From NCBI RefSeq assembly GCF_024346315.1, contig NZ_JAGQCS010000002.1, positions 1 through 64,000 on the forward strand: 64,000 nucleotides of DNA, written 5' to 3'. The stretch comes from Cyanobium sp. ATX 6F1 (GTDB lineage Bacteria; Cyanobacteriota; Cyanobacteriia; PCC-6307; Cyanobiaceae). The translations under genes and the position numbers were made by a program. Position 1 is the stretch's first letter; every line of letters starts with the position of its first letter. Of the stretch, positions 43,057 to 49,697 are shown in pieces. The notes below the pieces were generated by a model. The model was not told the DNA's origin and made no database searches. It saw only the letters and a list, made by a program, of their open reading frames with translations.

Positions 43057-44010
43057 TCAGGCCTCGGGTCGGACGATTGCAAAGATCTCCTCCAGGATCG
43101 CTCCTGCCCCCTGGCGCTTAAGGGCATGGGCCAGCGAAATCCCGATGGCCTCCGGGTCGTCCTGGGGGCCGCGGGCCTCGTCGCGAATCAGGCGCAGACC
43201 ATCGAGGCTGGCCACCATGCCGGTGAGCACCAGGTCCTCGCCCTCGAAGCGCGTGTTCACCCCGATCGGCACCTGACAGCCCCCCTCCAGTTCGCGCAGG
43301 AAGGCCCGCTCCGCCAGGCAACGCCTGGCCGTGGGCAGGTGCTCCAGCACTTTGATGCACTCGAGCACCGTGTCATCACCCTCGCGGCACTCGATACCCA
43401 GGGCCCCCTGGCCCACCGCATGGAGCGAAACGGCTGGGTCAATCAGTTCATGGATGCGATGGCCCAGTCCGAGGCGGCCCAGGCCCGCCGCCGCCAGGAT
43501 CAGGCAGTCGTAGTCGCCCGCATCCAGCTTCTCCAGACGGGTGATCACGTTGCCGCGCACGTCCTTGAAGGCGAGCTGGGGGTAGTGATGGCGCAACTGA
43601 GCCAGCCGCCTGAGCGAGCTGGTGCCCACCACACTGCCGGCCGGCAGGGTGGCCAGGGTCTTGTCCCGATGGCGTTCATGCACCACCAGGGCATCGGCGG
43701 GATCCTCCCGTTCGGTGATGCAGCCAAGGATCAGGCCCTCCGGCAGGTTCGTGGGCAGGTCCTTGAGGCTGTGAACGGCGATGTCCGCTCGATCCAGAAG
43801 CATCTGGGCCTCCAGCTCCTTGGTGAACAGGCCCTTGTCACCGATCTTGGCCAGGGCCACATCGAGGATCTTGTCCCCTTGGGTGGCCATCGCTTCGATG
43901 CTGATCTCCAGGCCCCCATGGGTCCTGGCCAGCTCATCACGCACCCAGTGGGTCTGCACCATCGCCAGCTGACTGCGGCGAGAGGCGATGCGCAACATGG
44001 AGCCAGCCAT
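43057..44010 (-). CDS. hemC: Porphobilinogen deaminase (hydroxymethylbilane synthase)
   Basis: This 317-residue enzyme joins four porphobilinogens to hydroxymethylbilane on the heme/chlorophyll path. Markers are [10 protein letters not shown] near the start, VHSLKDLP (79-86), GTSSLRR (129-135), [10 protein letters not shown] (150-159), and EGGCQVPIG with Cys245 that holds the dipyrromethane cofactor. The ATG at 44010 is chosen; 43998 is a second possible start. Upstream genes back to sigA run in the same direction, and ClC follows 34 bases downstream. Confidence 0.96.
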
Positions 44011-44080
44011 CAGATCAACCTCAACCCGGCAGCGACTGCCCGACACAGCCGTCCAGCCTAGGGACTGACCGGTCCTGAGA

Positions 44081-44488
44081 TCAGGCGAAGAAATCCAGAG
44101 GGAAGGGGCCCCAGGTGTCCTCGGCCTCAGGCGCCACGGAGCTGTGCCCGCTGATCAACACTCCCAGGCCGAGCCCGGCTTCCTGGCGCAGGCGAAAGCG
44201 GCCGGTGTTCTGGTTTCCCTTGAGGAACACACCACCGCTGGGGGTCCCAGCCGCCTCGCTTGGATCGGCCTCAAGGGGAGACCAGCCGTGTTGACGCTCA
44301 AGTTGGCGCAGGGCGGCGATGGCGGTGGCGCCATCGGCGGCCATCACTCCGATGGTGAACCACTCGCAGGCCGCCAGCTTTTCGTCGAGTTCAGCGCGCA
44401 GCCCCTGGCGCTCGGTGGCTCCCAGGGTGGGGGCAGTGCGCAAGCCGCGCAGGGCCATCAGCGACGGAAGCGAGGCAGACGTGCTCAA
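44081..44488 (-). CDS. DUF1824 family protein
   Basis: This 135-residue soluble protein has the DUF1824 pattern [17 protein letters not shown], then [19 protein letters not shown], and the final [10 protein letters not shown]. The family is nearly restricted to cyanobacteria and plastid-bearing eukaryotes; function unknown. The ATG at 44488 overlaps the PAP2 stop by four bases. It is the last gene of the sugar-transfer run that begins at 48158. Confidence 0.85.
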
Positions 44489-45180
44489 GAGGATCGGCCC
44501 AGGGAACAGTCAGTCTGTCGGGCCCCAAAGAAGCGGAGACTCACCGAGCAGAGGCTGAGCCAGATGAAGCCCACGCAAGCACCCGCAACGATGTCGGTGG
44601 GCCAATGCACCCGGCAATAGAGCGTGCTCAGCCAGATCACAGCGACCCAGAGGGCCGAACCCAGGTAGAGGGGGCGCCGCAGCTGGGGATAGCGGGCCAC
44701 AAGGATGGCGCACATCAGGAAATAGAACACCACCGCACCGGCGGCATGGCCGCTGGGGAAACTGCGGCCGAAGGCCTGCACCAGCTTGTCCTCAGGGCGG
44801 TGGCGATCGAAGAGCGGCTTGAGCCAGCGGTCGACGATCAACAGGATGCCACCGGTGCCCACCACCAGCCAGCGCAGCTCATTCCACCAACGCTTCCACC
44901 CCAGGTAGATCAGGGCTGCCGTCACCAGCACGGCGGTGAACTGAATGCCGCTCACCTTGTAGACCCTCACCAGCCAACGGCCCATGCCGACGGGGATCAC
45001 CTGACCAAGCCAACTGAGCAGAGCGTTGTCGAGGGGGGGAAGCTCGAGGGGCACCACCGTCAGCGCGATCAGCAGCACCAGTGCCAGGGCCGCCAGGCAG
45101 GCCAGCAGGCGCCAGGGGCCGAACAGCCGCATCCAGTCCTTCAGCCCTCCCAACAGCTGGAGGGACAGCGCACGCTTCAT
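44485..45180 (-). CDS. PAP2 family membrane phosphatase
   Basis: This 231-residue membrane protein has the three PAP2 motifs: KPLFDRHRP (121-129), SFPSGHA (140-146) and RVHWPTD (190-196; Arg190, His192, Asp196). Hydrophobic segments lie before and between them. PAP2 enzymes remove phosphate from lipid diphosphates such as undecaprenyl diphosphate or phosphatidate. Overlaps of four bases with the ArnT-like gene upstream and the DUF1824 gene downstream indicate one transcript and suggest recycling of a polyprenyl carrier. Confidence 0.92.
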   Translation of the reverse strand: MKRALSLQLLGGLKDWMRLFGPWRLLACLAALALVLLIALTVVPLELPPLDNALLSWLGQVIPVGMGRWLVRVYKVSGIQFTAVLVTAALIYLGWKRWWNELRWLVVGTGGILLIVDRWLKPLFDRHRPEDKLVQAFGRSFPSGHAAGAVVFYFLMCAILVARYPQLRRPLYLGSALWVAVIWLSTLYCRVHWPTDIVAGACVGFIWLSLCSVSLRFFGARQTDCSLGRSS

Positions 45181-46955
45181 GGCCTTGATTCTGCGCCCTG
45201 GGGGGGGGCGAATCGGAGCCGCCAGAGAGCCTGGCTGCCGCGGCTGGCCAGCTGCTCGATCCGCTCAGGCGGCAGGGAAAACTCCCGCAGCTTGCGCTCC
45301 TCTCCCACCACCAGAACCGATGGCGGCAGCGGTGTCCCCGGCTTGGTCTCAGCCCTGAGCTCCTCCTCGGCGCTGGCGGCGCTGTCGAAGAACCGGGCCG
45401 GATGGCCGCTGTAGAACACGACGCTGTAGCGCTTGTAGCCCACCACCAGCAGCGGTTCGCCGGGGCGGATCCACTGGCCGGCCAGGGCGGCCACCTCCCG
45501 CACGGGCTGTTGCCGTTCGCGCTCCATCAGGGGGGCCAGTCCGGGAACGACCAGCAGCAGCACCCCGGCGAAGGCCGCCAGATTCGGAAGCCACAGAGCC
45601 TGCGGCGGCCCGCCGCGGCTGAGCCGAACCACCATCGCCAGGGCGGCAGCCGCGAGCAGCGCCGCAAAGATCAAGGGCAGACCTGAGCGGGACAGGGCAG
45701 CAGCAAAGCCTGGATAGGCCGGATCACCCGCGGCCCAGCGTGGGGCGATCGCCGCCGCCACCGCCATGGCCGCCAGCAGCAGCGCGTTCAACCAGCCATA
45801 GAACCGCTGCCAGCGATCGTCCATCAGCGGGGCCTGAGACACCGACAGTGGCGCGGCCGGCAGTGGCATCCAGAACAGGGCCACCACCAGGGCGCCGGCG
45901 GGAACAAGAGGGAGGATGTATCCCGCCAACTTCGTGCTGGCGGCCGAGAAGAACAGCAGCACCACCAGAAACCAGACCAGGCAGAAGGGTGCGAACTGCA
46001 CACTGCGGGGCTGCTGACGCCAGCGCTCGAGCTGCCAGAAGCGCAGTCGCAGGGCGGCCAAGGGCAGAAACAACGACCACGGCAGGAGCAGGATCAGGCA
46101 CCAGGGCAGGTAGAAGTACCAGGGGCCGGAATGGCCATAGAGCACCGAGGTGTAACGCTGCAGGTTGCTGAAGCCGAAGAAGCCCCCGAGGAATTCGGTG
46201 CCGTTCGCCCGTGCCGCCAGCAGGTACCAGGGGCTGGCCAACGCAAGGAAGGCGACCGCCATCGGCAGCATTGGCATCTGGCGGAGCACGGAGCGCAACT
46301 GGGCCGAGCCGAGCAGGAACACCACGATCACCGCCCCCGGCAGCACCAGACCCACCGGGCCCTTGGCCAGCACCGCGATGGCGCTGAAAAGAGGCATCGC
46401 CACGTAGCCGCAGCGGCGCAGGCCAGGCCGGTCCACCTGGCTGTAGGCCAGAAAGAATCCGAACAATGACAGCGTGATCGCACTGGAGAGGAACATGTCG
46501 GTGACGGAACTGCGCCCCCAGCCCACCCAGCCAGGGTTGAACGCCAGAAGCGCGGCCCCAAGCCAGCAGCGTCGCCAACGGCTCCCGGTCGCTTCGCCCT
46601 CGGACAGCACCCAGAGCAGAGCGAAGCCCGCCACCACCACCGCGCTGGCCATGAGTGCCACGGGCAGCCGCGCCGCCCAGGCGCTCACACCGAAGAGGCG
46701 AAAGCTCAGGGCCACCATCCAGTAGCCCCAGACGGGATAGTCGAAGAACGGCTCACCGTTCCAGTGGGGCGTGATCCAGTCGTTGCGCTGCAGCATTTCC
46801 CGGCCCACCTCCACGAAGAGGGCTTCGGTCTTGTCCATCAAACTGAGCGTGCCCAGTTGGTTGAAGAAGGCCACCCAGCAGAGCAGCAGCAGACCAGCGG
46901 CTGAAAGCAGAGCCAGACGGGTGGAGCGCGCCTGCGGGATTGAAGTGAAAGCCAT
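45177..46955 (-). CDS. ArnT/PMT-like membrane glycosyltransferase
   Basis: This 592-residue polytopic protein of the GT-C/GT39-GT83 group has about a dozen hydrophobic segments. The N-terminal lumenal/periplasmic loop MDKTEALFVEVGREMLQRND (40-59) has the acidic residues typical of the ArnT/PMT catalytic loop, and WNGEPFFDYPVWGYW follows as the carrier-binding region of the family. Such enzymes move a sugar from a polyprenyl phosphate to a lipid or protein on the outer side. The C-terminal domain (about 460-592) is periplasmic. ATG at 46955 is used; the extended frame to 47006 is Pro/Cys-rich and unlikely. It overlaps PAP2 by four bases. Confidence 0.87.
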   Translation of the reverse strand: MAFTSIPQARSTRLALLSAAGLLLLCWVAFFNQLGTLSLMDKTEALFVEVGREMLQRNDWITPHWNGEPFFDYPVWGYWMVALSFRLFGVSAWAARLPVALMASAVVVAGFALLWVLSEGEATGSRWRRCWLGAALLAFNPGWVGWGRSSVTDMFLSSAITLSLFGFFLAYSQVDRPGLRRCGYVAMPLFSAIAVLAKGPVGLVLPGAVIVVFLLGSAQLRSVLRQMPMLPMAVAFLALASPWYLLAARANGTEFLGGFFGFSNLQRYTSVLYGHSGPWYFYLPWCLILLLPWSLFLPLAALRLRFWQLERWRQQPRSVQFAPFCLVWFLVVLLFFSAASTKLAGYILPLVPAGALVVALFWMPLPAAPLSVSQAPLMDDRWQRFYGWLNALLLAAMAVAAAIAPRWAAGDPAYPGFAAALSRSGLPLIFAALLAAAALAMVVRLSRGGPPQALWLPNLAAFAGVLLLVVPGLAPLMERERQQPVREVAALAGQWIRPGEPLLVVGYKRYSVVFYSGHPARFFDSAASAEEELRAETKPGTPLPPSVLVVGEERKLREFSLPPERIEQLASRGSQALWRLRFAPPQGAESRP

Positions 46956-47030
46956 GCGATCAGTGCACGGGAGGGGGAGAAAAAGACAAAACCGTACGTT
47001 CAGCAAAGAACGAGCGGCACAAAGATCAGC

Positions 47031-48158
47031 TCAGGGGGTGTTCCAGACGAAACGGGAGGAGGCGGCGTAATTCCATACGAACACGACGGTAATGCCGGCT
47101 ATCTGAGCAAAAAGGGTGTCTTTGGCCACGCTGGAATAAAAAACACTGGCCAGACCGATGTTGGCCAGCATGGGCAGAGATGCGACGATCAGAAACTTGA
47201 TCAGGCCTGCCAGCAATGGGAATCCCTTTAAGCGCAGATGGCGAAACGTGAGCGTGTTGTTCACCAGATAATTGCTGCATGCTGAAACAATCACAGCCGG
47301 AGGTAATGAGGCGACAAAAGAAAAGCCCAGCAGCATCAAAATCTTGGAGGCCAGCAACTGGACCCCGATTCCCGAAACACCGACCAAGGCGAAACTCACC
47401 GCACGCCGGGGAACCATGCGTAACAGCAGCGTATGGATGATCGACACACCAAAGTCCCAGAGGATGGAGACATCCAGCTTGGAGCTTCCGAAGCTGCGGG
47501 ATTGGAAGGTCAGCGGAGTCTCAACGGCAACAAGTTGCCCCCGACTGATCGAAAGGAGTTCGTAGAGGAACTTGAAACCCTGCGCATCCACCTGTCGAAT
47601 CATCGGCATGCAGCGATCGAGGCGCAGGGCAAAGAAGCCACTCATGAAGTCAGTGAGATGCCTGTAGCGAGGCAGGGTGAAGCGCGCCAGCTGGTTGGCC
47701 ATCACAGAACCTCCTTCGCGCTTGCTGCTCAAGCCCACAATTGAGGCAGCGTGGTGAAAGCGGCTGCCGATCACCAGATCGGCGTTCTGGGCCTGCAAGC
47801 TGTCGAGTGCCTCCGCAACGGCCGCCGGTTCATGCTGGCCGTCGCAGTCCATGACGACTGCCAGGTCGCCGGTGGCATCGAGGAGTCCCTCCTTGATCGC
47901 ACTGGACAAGCCGGATCGCCCCACCCTCCGGATCAAGCGGAGGGCGGGTTCCTGATGGGCCAGTTCCTTCACGAAATCGGCGGTTCCGTCCGCCGAGTCG
48001 TCATCAACGACAATCAGCTCCAACTGGAACCGGTTGCGAAGGGCCAGCAACTGCTGGAGGATCGGCTGAATGTTCTGCCGCTCGTTGAAGGTGGGCAGAA
48101 CGATGGTGACCCTCGCTGCCGGAGAGGTCCCGGCAGACGCGACGACCGATTCGGGCAA
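47031..48158 (-). CDS. GT2 glycosyltransferase fused to a GtrA membrane domain
   Basis: This 375-residue protein has an N-terminal DPM1/ArnC-like GT2 domain (about 15-240) with VDDDSADGT (51-59) and the metal-binding DCDG (104-107), and a C-terminal four-helix GtrA domain (about 252-372). Such fusions make polyprenyl-phosphate-sugar in the membrane and may help flip it. It fits as the donor maker for the ArnT-like enzyme encoded 75 bases downstream. Base composition differs from neighbours: about 53-54% G+C over 47041-47580 counted by eye, against about two thirds in the ArnT-like gene, suggesting transfer. It starts 27 bases after the sigA stop. Confidence 0.9.
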   Translation of the reverse strand: MPESVVASAGTSPAARVTIVLPTFNERQNIQPILQQLLALRNRFQLELIVVDDDSADGTADFVKELAHQEPALRLIRRVGRSGLSSAIKEGLLDATGDLAVVMDCDGQHEPAAVAEALDSLQAQNADLVIGSRFHHAASIVGLSSKREGGSVMANQLARFTLPRYRHLTDFMSGFFALRLDRCMPMIRQVDAQGFKFLYELLSISRGQLVAVETPLTFQSRSFGSSKLDVSILWDFGVSIIHTLLLRMVPRRAVSFALVGVSGIGVQLLASKILMLLGFSFVASLPPAVIVSACSNYLVNNTLTFRHLRLKGFPLLAGLIKFLIVASLPMLANIGLASVFYSSVAKDTLFAQIAGITVVFVWNYAASSRFVWNTP

Positions 48159-48185: not shown

Positions 48186-49670
48186 TTACTTGATGTACTC
48201 CTTGAGCACGCCGTTGCGGTTGGGGTGACGGAGCTTGCGCAGGGCCTTGGCCTCGATCTGGCGGATGCGCTCACGGGTCACATCAAAGATCTGGCCAATC
48301 TCCTCGAGGGTCTTCATGCGGCCATCATCAAGGCCGTAGCGCAGGCGCAGCACGTCGCGTTCGCGGGGGCTGAGGGTGGCCAGAACCCCCTCAAGATCTT
48401 CCCTCAGCAGGTTCTTGGCGACATCTTGCTCTGGGTTCTCGATGTCGGCTTCGATGAAATCACCGAGGCGTGAATCTTCCTCTTTACCGATCGGTGTTTC
48501 CAGCGAGATCGGCAGCTGGGCTGATTTGGCGATGAAGCGCAGCTTCTCGATCGTCATCTCCATCGATTCAGCAATCTCCTCCTCGGTGGGTTTGCGGCCG
48601 AACTCCTGGCTGAGCACCTTGGTGGTCTTCTTGATCCGAGAGATGGTTTCGTAAAGGTGCACCGGCAGGCGAATGGTCCGGCTCTGGTCAGCGATCGCCC
48701 GGGTGATGGCCTGGCGGATCCACCAGGTGGCATAGGTGGAGAACTTGTAACCCTTTTCGTGGTCGAACTTCTCGGCGGCACGGATCAGGCCGAGGCTTCC
48801 CTCCTGGATCAGGTCCTGGAAGGAAAGACCCCGGTTCATGTATTTCTTGGCGATCGACACCACCAGCCGCAGGTTGGATTGGACCATCTTTTCCTTGGCC
48901 CGGCGGCCGAGCATCAGCCGGCGACGGAACTTGACCAGGGGCATGTCCAGGAGGACGGCCCATTCCTTGTTGTCGGGGGCATGGCCGTTGTCCTGCTCGA
49001 ACTGCGCGGCGAGTTCCTCGAGATGGAGCAGGTCGGCGATCTTGCGCGCCAGCTCGATCTCCTCATCGGGCCGCAACAGGCGAATGCGGCCGATCTCCTG
49101 CAGGTACACCCGGATCGAATCCTCGGTGTAAACGCCCTTGGGGCCGACCTTGATGCTGGCCAGGACCTTGGCGGCCTTGGGGTCCTTGCGCTCTTCAGCG
49201 CTGGCGGCCAGGAGCTCGTTGGCGGCCAGATCGAGATCCACAGCGCTCTCGGCACTGCCACTGGGGTCGGCCTTCGCTCCATCGGCCTTGCTGGCGGCAA
49301 CAGCCTTCTTGGCCGTGGCCTTGGTCGTGGCGGCCTTGGCAGCCACCGCCTTTGAGGCCGCTGCCTTCGAGGTGGTTGCCTTGGTGCCGGTGGTCTTTGC
49401 CGCTGCCGACTTGGCTGCCGCGGCCTTGGGGGTCGCCGCCTTGTGGCTGCGGCTCGGGCTCACCTTGTTCGCCGGATCAGGCTGCTCAGCGGTGTCGTTG
49501 GCGGGAGACGGCTCGGCTGCGGTGGCGTCGTCGGCCATGGGGGGGGCGATCTGCTTGCGGCTGCGGGTGCTCTTGGGCTTGGTCATCGTGACCTCGTCGC
49601 CGATGCCGTTGGCGACCAGCAGGATCTCAGACACGGGCTTGGTGACGTTGGCAGCGACAGCAGGACTCAT
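48186..49670 (-). CDS. sigA: Principal RNA polymerase sigma factor (group 1, SigA/RpoD)
   Basis: This 494-residue sigma-70 factor directs most transcription. Region 1.2 starts near residue 180 ([13 protein letters not shown]); region 2 has [15 protein letters not shown] and [19 protein letters not shown]; region 3 has [14 protein letters not shown]; and region 4 has [15 protein letters not shown] and [18 protein letters not shown]. The N-terminal third (about 75-135) is a striking Lys/Ala/Thr repeat. ATG at 49670 is used; the frame opens at a TTG at 49679, and an internal ATG at 49586 is possible. Its GT2 neighbour starts 27 bases downstream. Confidence 0.95.
49290..49442 (-). repeat. 15-bp periodic repeat coding for KxxxxK pentads in SigA
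   Basis: In the SigA N-terminal tail, lysine recurs every fifth residue for ten successive units: [50 protein letters not shown] (residues 77-127 of the 494-residue protein). The coding DNA is therefore a degenerate 15-bp tandem repeat, and resembles histone-H1-like tails. Confidence 0.85.
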
Positions 49671-49697
49671 GGCGGACAAGAACAGGAAAGGGGGGGC

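Follow-up and report, generated by a model that had tools for sequence, protein, structure and literature searches.

A putative surface-glycosylation cassette, old and patchily lost, between sigA and hemC in one clade of picocyanobacteria

In this study, we report that the gap between sigA and hemC in Cyanobium sp. ATX 6F1 probably, on balance, holds an old surface-glycosylation cassette, in which a GT2-GtrA protein makes the sugar donor, an ArnT-like enzyme transfers the sugar outside the cell, a PAP2 protein acts on a lipid phosphate, and DUF1824 and hemC merely share the site. The observed basis of this model consists of domains, folds, co-occurrence and site history. The cassette offers a testable trio of donor synthase, transferase and phosphatase for envelope glycans, which are poorly known in these picocyanobacteria; it also draws attention to a GT83 branch of cyanobacteria that differs from ArnT at the donor-phosphate site. 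The gap itself, which is found full, partial, decayed, empty or occupied by an alternative cassette, offers natural comparisons for surface chemistry.

Results and discussion

Organisation of the locus

The window is a stretch of 64,000 nucleotides (contig NZ_JAGQCS010000002.1, positions 1 to 64,000) from a genome of 2.96 Mb, the nearest named relative of which in our trees is Cyanobium sp. Morenito 9A2. Six genes follow one another on the minus strand in the order sigA, GT2-GtrA, ArnT-like, PAP2, DUF1824 and hemC (Table 1); the middle four are referred to here as the block. All Pfam domain scores of the six genes lie above cut-off (among them Glycos_transf_2 at 98 and GtrA_DPMS_TM at 66), and a plus-strand ORF, which we take to be priA, is located upstream of sigA. 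Four-base overlaps join the ArnT-like gene to PAP2, and PAP2 to DUF1824. The genes, coordinates, overlaps and G+C figures of a preliminary description of this DNA were all real, the ORFs lying where they had been placed and the G+C recomputing to 0.537 for positions 47041-47580 and 0.674 for the ArnT-like gene (0.677 for the window). A promoter and terminator scan returned nothing usable above chance.

As called, hemC overlaps the downstream ORF, presumably of ClC type, by 71 bases on the same strand (43057-43127), and the true start of that ORF may lie further in.

Table 1. Genes of the sigA-hemC locus in the window
Feature	Position	Strand	Evidence
sigA/rpoD, principal sigma factor, upstream flank of the site	48186-49679	-	NCBIfam PRK07406 723 bits vs cut-off 500; Sigma70 regions in Pfam
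GT2-GtrA, putative DPMS-like polyprenyl-phosphate-sugar synthase fused to GtrA membrane domain	47031-48158	-	Pfam PF00535 98 bits and PF04138 66 bits
ArnT-like GT-C (GT83-type) glycosyltransferase, DKTE/FDYP branch	45177-47006	-	PMT_2 37 bits; structure match; motifs
PAP2 membrane phosphatase without the arginine of the third motif	44485-45180	-	PF01569 59 bits; structure match
DUF1824, long-term hemC neighbour in this clade	44081-44488	-	PF08854 97 bits
hemC, hydroxymethylbilane synthase, downstream flank of the site	43057-44046	-	Porphobil_deam 282 bits; TIGR00212 343 bits vs cut-off 164

The GT2-GtrA gene and its partners

Pfam places a GT2 domain and a GtrA/DPMS membrane domain in a single chain, and the best solved relative of the protein is the P. 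furiosus dolichol-phosphate-mannose synthase (DPMS; 5mlz, phmmer E 3e-44, residues 15-374). A D.DGQH motif, of the acidic DxD..QH type and presumably catalytic, was present in 96 of 97 homologs. The gene was found in 109/200 genomes of the window's family (E <=1e-60), and a draw of 194 genomes from the phylum contained six with it (E <=1e-45), all belonging to that family.

Block ArnT (E <1e-140) occurred in 57 of the 200 family genomes; GT2 was present in all 57, vs 52/143 genomes without this ArnT (Fisher 1e-19, with genomes treated as independent). PAP2 was found in 58 of the 200, comprising 56/57 ArnT genomes and 2/143 others (Fisher 5e-46, again with genomes treated as independent); the two family genomes having PAP2 without this ArnT were G065, a relic described below, and G071. 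Tree-aware pairing of 82 genomes yielded four independent ArnT contrasts, with GT2 following on average in 1.4 of them and PAP2 in 3.5, and never the reverse; four contrasts are unable to reach significance, so the co-occurrence may largely reflect shared ancestry. Fifteen ArnT-bearing genomes had no GT2 seen at the site (the loci L044 and L054 being cut off upstream of ArnT), and 13 of these carried it elsewhere. The two others were the bins of L044, where the contig ends at ArnT, and of L046; the latter has a readable site with ArnT and PAP2 and no GT2 found in the genome bin, which counts against the pairing with a donor synthase. Because all 57 ArnT genomes have GT2, there is support for GT2-GtrA as a polyprenyl-phosphate-sugar synthase that supplies the ArnT-like enzyme.

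Since 52 genomes carry GT2 without this ArnT, GT2 serves other partners too. Twenty-four GT2 loci that lie away from the sigA site were picked by hand; a fabF-type gene was near GT2 in seven, with a transketolase between in five, and a gene of the PMT_2-type cluster adjoined GT2 or lay within two ORFs of it in ten; Pfam was used to check these neighbouring gene names at one locus and for two members of the PMT_2-type cluster.

The ArnT-like enzyme and its cyanobacterial branch

The ArnT-like protein matched the ArnT structure 5ezm with E 6.5e-30, and its predicted model (mean pLDDT 80) aligned with CmArnT (5f15) at Z 37.8 and rmsd 4.5 over 515 residues; PMT folds were the next structural matches, at Z of about 24. 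In the model, the ArnT fold spans both the membrane and the periplasmic parts, as a GT-C fold of the GT83/PMT type would. The score fell short of the curated equivalog for ArnT, the L-Ara4N transferase (PRK13279, 131 bits vs a cut-off of 567).

Loop 1 of the window enzyme reads DKTE...FFDYP. Both the loop-1 YFEKP lysine of ArnT and its RYA motif are absent, with FFDYP and LFV at the aligned places. K85 of CmArnT has been described as contacting the carrier phosphate, with D55/E56 aligning with the known active site (PMC7801869), and the matching lysine of B. cenocepacia ArnT (YFEKP) as required (PMC5377068). DKTE/FDYP was found in 63/64 ArnT members of the block, the 64th being unreadable there, and the position of the YFEKP lysine was a tyrosine in all 63 readable members. 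Motifs were counted in 55 of 58 ArnT-like genes that come from beyond the family (one was set aside for a mis-matched stretch with DETE/FDKP visible, and two were unread), giving 13 with DKTE and 42 with DETE. All 42 DETE genes carried FDKP; the DKTE genes had FDKP in six cases, YSYP in four and FDYP in three. In a quick tree the DKTE rows formed one 23-row clade (SH-aLRT 100), and the YSYP and FDYP rows a nested 17-row clade holding the block. The window enzyme thus falls in a single-origin cyanobacterial clade in which DETE...FDKP changed to DKTE first, followed by loss of the lysine that contacts the carrier phosphate in ArnT. The residue changes put forward are limited to a replacement of E by K inside the cyanobacterial family and, as aligned, of K85 by Y. 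A reading of the loop-1 change as a charge swap at CmArnT E56 was rejected, the gapless alignment setting the new lysine opposite P54 and the preceding acidic residue two places before D55.

The window's genome contains a second GT83-like gene of the DETP/YDKP type (L218; G000:C1:200514-202304). With the ArnT query, 194/200 family genomes gave a match at E <=1e-20, either to block ArnT or a weaker match roughly of this second kind. The second gene may encode a lipid A GalA transferase such as marine Synechococcus lipid A would lead one to expect. A literature search on ArnT-type polyprenyl glycosyltransferases in cyanobacteria found no paper.

The PAP2 protein

The predicted PAP2 model (mean pLDDT 86.5) has a PAP2 fold and is closest to B. 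subtilis PgpB, followed by human G6PC1 and Aquifex LpxE. Alignment with 5jki gave Z 21.0 and rmsd 2.4 over 195 residues; that with LpxE (6ebu) ranked below it, at Z 14.4 and rmsd 2.6 over 159 residues, and fold searches with the model did not separate a PgpB-like from an LpxE-like function. Phosphatases of the PAP2 type carry the motifs KX6RP, PSGH and SRX5HX3D. The first two are present here together with the His and Asp of the third, and the third-motif Arg is replaced by T in 66/66 close homologs and by S in 6/6 further ones; an R stands two residues ahead of the third-motif His in 69 of the 72.

PAP2 comes after ArnT in the block. In 5/18 loci from other families it stands immediately ahead of ArnT, an opposite gene order, and all five of these are DKTE; it adjoins ArnT by coordinates in genomes G398 and G366 too. 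A PAP2 ortholog, defined by a 200-bit line that was set after the scores had been seen (no score fell between 160.5 and 201), was present in 12/13 DKTE genomes outside the family vs 1/42 DETE genomes, the exceptions being G305 and G334. DKTE arose once, so this association represents one evolutionary event (one contrast for the DKT motif) rather than a statistical test. PAP2 was also found in 4/13 outside-family genomes with no detected ArnT.

Proposed route and alternative readings

In the proposed route, GT2-GtrA would use a nucleotide sugar to glycosylate polyprenyl phosphate at the cytoplasmic face, in the manner of dolichol-phosphate-mannose synthase and GtrB, and the donor would flip to the outer face by means of the GtrA part or another protein. 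At the periplasmic face, the ArnT-like GT-C enzyme would move the sugar to an acceptor, for which a lipid such as LPS/lipid A is the likeliest candidate; this step would release polyprenyl phosphate. The Pfam and structure matches specify neither sugar nor acceptor. PAP2 would act on a lipid phosphate, most likely that of the acceptor, as the lipid A phosphatase LpxF does in rhizobia alongside the GT83 GalA transferase RgtD. DUF1824 and hemC would take no part beyond sharing the site. The published Synechococcus lipid A structures come from marine strains (PMC4515613); none of these strains was seen here with the block, and the suggested link to lipid A is made by analogy only.

In another reading, an envelope protein or an exopolysaccharide would be the acceptor instead of lipid A, and PAP2 would be a co-transcribed general lipid phosphatase. 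The position of PMT folds next after ArnT and the other GT-C-type neighbours of GT2 elsewhere favour such a reading; however, the ArnT match stands well above PMT (Z 38 vs 24) and PAP2 accompanies ArnT in both gene orders, and we regard it as possible but doubtful.

The preliminary description had read the four block genes as one route in which PAP2 recycles the lipid carrier and DUF1824 is a pathway member. Its donor synthase and GT-C transferase are retained here, but the other two assignments are not. PgpB being the best structural match of PAP2, together with the overlap of PAP2 and DUF1824 and their spacing (at most five bases in 54 of 80 loci, a partly redundant set), would suit these assignments. 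Against recycling, a GT-C enzyme that uses a polyprenyl-monophosphate sugar releases polyprenyl phosphate, which needs no phosphatase, and the protein scored far below the curated cut-offs for PgpB (PRK10699, 24.9 vs 261 bits) and undecaprenyl-diphosphate phosphatase (PRK11837, 20.4 vs 229 bits). DUF1824 was present in 112/121 family genomes whether the block was present or absent, and because of this distribution it is set aside as a pathway gene and probably stands outside the pathway. Genomes free of the block may have it elsewhere (in G011, DUF1824 lies at 434 kb and hemC at 471 kb). Within the 60-row clade described below it stays between sigA and hemC, often touching PAP2, and a link between the two from this real close contact is possible. 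Taken together, carrier recycling with DUF1824 in the pathway is unlikely.

LpxT is likewise a PAP2 protein, and a similar phosphotransferase that adds phosphate to the acceptor can be imagined from the uniform replacement of the third-motif arginine by T in close homologs. LpxT has been described as coupling the phosphorylation of lipid A to the formation of undecaprenyl phosphate (PMC2229476). The lipid A structures described for cyanobacteria were, however, reported without phosphate (PMC4515613), and we consider addition of phosphate improbable; trimming of a lipid phosphate by PAP2 is favoured.

History of the sigA-hemC site

Eighty named loci were brought in as best hemC matches and are biased to close relatives; 64 extend to sigA or priA, and 16 end early at contig ends. 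Tblastn missed sigA in L013, L014 and L051; its C-terminal end is present in L013 and L051 (not in L014). All four block genes were present in 27 of the 64, while 13 lacked GT2, nine had GT2 and DUF1824, and 15 had DUF1824 only (including L072, which houses another cassette). A broader sample comprised 89 loci drawn from genomes of the family, and sigA and hemC were both detected on the stretch in 82 of them and not in seven. The gap held none of the four block genes in 33 of the 82 genomes (gap 27-1761 bases), DUF1824 only in 18, the full block in 18, and ArnT, PAP2 and DUF1824 in nine; the remainder comprised two with GT2 and DUF1824, one with GT2, ArnT and DUF1824, and one decayed. These loci were chosen by hand, first from ArnT-lacking and then from ArnT-bearing genomes, and the proportions are not frequencies; nor are the counts of the two sets additive, as they overlap in contig coordinates. 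The earlier statement that sigA and hemC are close neighbours in other picocyanobacteria holds for the part of the family with the empty gap.

A quick species tree was built from priA and hemC (93 rows, seven duplicates dropped). Every row with GT2, ArnT or PAP2 at the site fell in one 60-row clade (SH-aLRT 96, several inner branches weak), a picocyanobacterial clade whose named members are Cyanobium, Vulcanococcus and Synechococcus. This clade contained 23 full blocks, 13 without GT2, seven with GT2 only, one decayed and 16 with DUF1824 only, and the 33 rows outside it comprised 30 with none and three with DUF1824 only. The changes needed on the tree were six for GT2, five each for ArnT and PAP2, and two for DUF1824, a count that is by itself blind to gain versus loss. 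In genome G065 (L129:5062-6537), decayed pieces of GT2, ArnT and PAP2 lie between sigA and DUF1824, and a longer, stop-free GT2 match is present elsewhere in the genome. Given the block-free rows outside the clade and the G065 site fragments, the block is best read as one old gain followed by several losses in one clade. The idea of an inserted block thus stands in so far as the site is empty in many relatives, but not as a recent event, the clade having 23 full and 21 partial sites and five to six changes per gene.

The preliminary description named the low G+C of GT2-GtrA next to its reading of an inserted block, but low G+C as a mark of foreign origin is not supported. GC3 was 0.73 for this gene vs 0.79-0.84 for the other five, and within it 0.66 for the GtrA part and 0.76 for the GT2 part. 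Across 65 partly redundant rows, the GtrA part was more than 0.12 below hemC in GC3 in six, and the whole GT2 gene was mildly below hemC in 32/38 loci. The GT2 tree grouped the window with L009, G060, L030, L032 and G106 (SH-aLRT 99), in each of which the gene lies at the sigA site; L009 is sister to the window in the species tree, where the next step is weak (43), and the ArnT tree likewise sets the window among its species-tree relatives. Because both genes cluster in this way, the low G+C is no sign of recent import. That this genome recently received the block from a donor of lower GC, a view for which the 0.537 stretch and the existence of such a case in G090 could be cited, is therefore very improbable given the two gene trees, the presence of all or part of the block at this site in 44/60 rows of the clade, and the GC3 of the other block genes, which resembles that of sigA and hemC. 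G090 (L146) is the only carrier of block ArnT among the sampled genomes of group g63, six others with a readable site holding DUF1824 only; GC3 there is 0.47 for GT2 and 0.46 for ArnT vs 0.75 for hemC, and a recent import at the same place is probable.

A different cassette lies between sigA and DUF1824 at L072:5486-9382 and L146:2031-5830, consisting of a PMT/PMT_2 gene, a GtrA-YdjC fusion and a GT2 gene on the other strand; its GT83-like gene has a DTTEARY motif. On these two examples, the sigA-hemC gap looks like a site where modules for periplasmic sugar transfer are exchanged. We tentatively suggest, as a further possibility, a distinct cyanobacterial GT83 branch that gained the loop-1 lysine (DETE to DKTE) before losing the carrier-phosphate lysine (FDKP to FDYP or YSYP), and that, together with a PAP2 whose active site is altered, evolved as a new dephosphorylate-then-glycosylate pair; in picocyanobacteria this pair would have joined the fused GT2-GtrA at the exchange site, which is also able to house the GT83/GtrA-YdjC/GT2 cassette.

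Two further loci were observed. At L117:1877-6056 (G025), a 789-aa ORF (GC3 0.41) and an amino acid permease lie between sigA and DUF1824. L049, filed as Bifidobacterium breve, carries cyanobacterial sigA-hemC DNA, groups with cyanobacterial bins and is probably a mislabelled bin.

Comparison with known systems

With the P. furiosus dolichol-phosphate-mannose synthase, GT2-GtrA shares the GT2 and GtrA-type architecture over nearly the full length, and it differs in being bacterial. The window enzyme is like ArnT in fold, but unlike B. cenocepacia ArnT, for which the YFEKP lysine was described as required (PMC5377068), the block enzymes have a tyrosine in its place.

The second cassette alone resembles the Francisella NaxD/FlmK route, in which a YdjC-family deacetylase goes with a GT83; it differs in that YdjC is fused to GtrA in L072 and L146. 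NaxD, of the YdjC family, has been described as deacetylating a polyprenyl-linked amino sugar (undecaprenyl-P-GalNAc) before lipid A modification (PMC11279074).

RgtD and RgtF are GT83 enzymes, and LpxE and LpxF are PAP2 proteins. The block is like the Rgt/Lpx set in combining a donor synthase, a transferase (there for GalA) and a phosphatase (there for lipid A), as described in PMC7663294. The three-component Gtr system of O-antigen glucosylation (GtrB, GtrA and a serotype-specific GT-C) likewise pairs a polyprenyl-phosphate-sugar synthase with GtrA and a GT-C enzyme, GtrA being described as a proposed flippase only (PMC11127046). The same gene set is encoded together here, with GtrA as a fused domain; unlike in the Gtr system, GtrB and GtrA are one protein, the GT-C enzyme is ArnT-like, and PAP2 lies alongside. 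The cassette is real, and would represent an old, patchily lost surface-glycosylation variant of this three-component kind.
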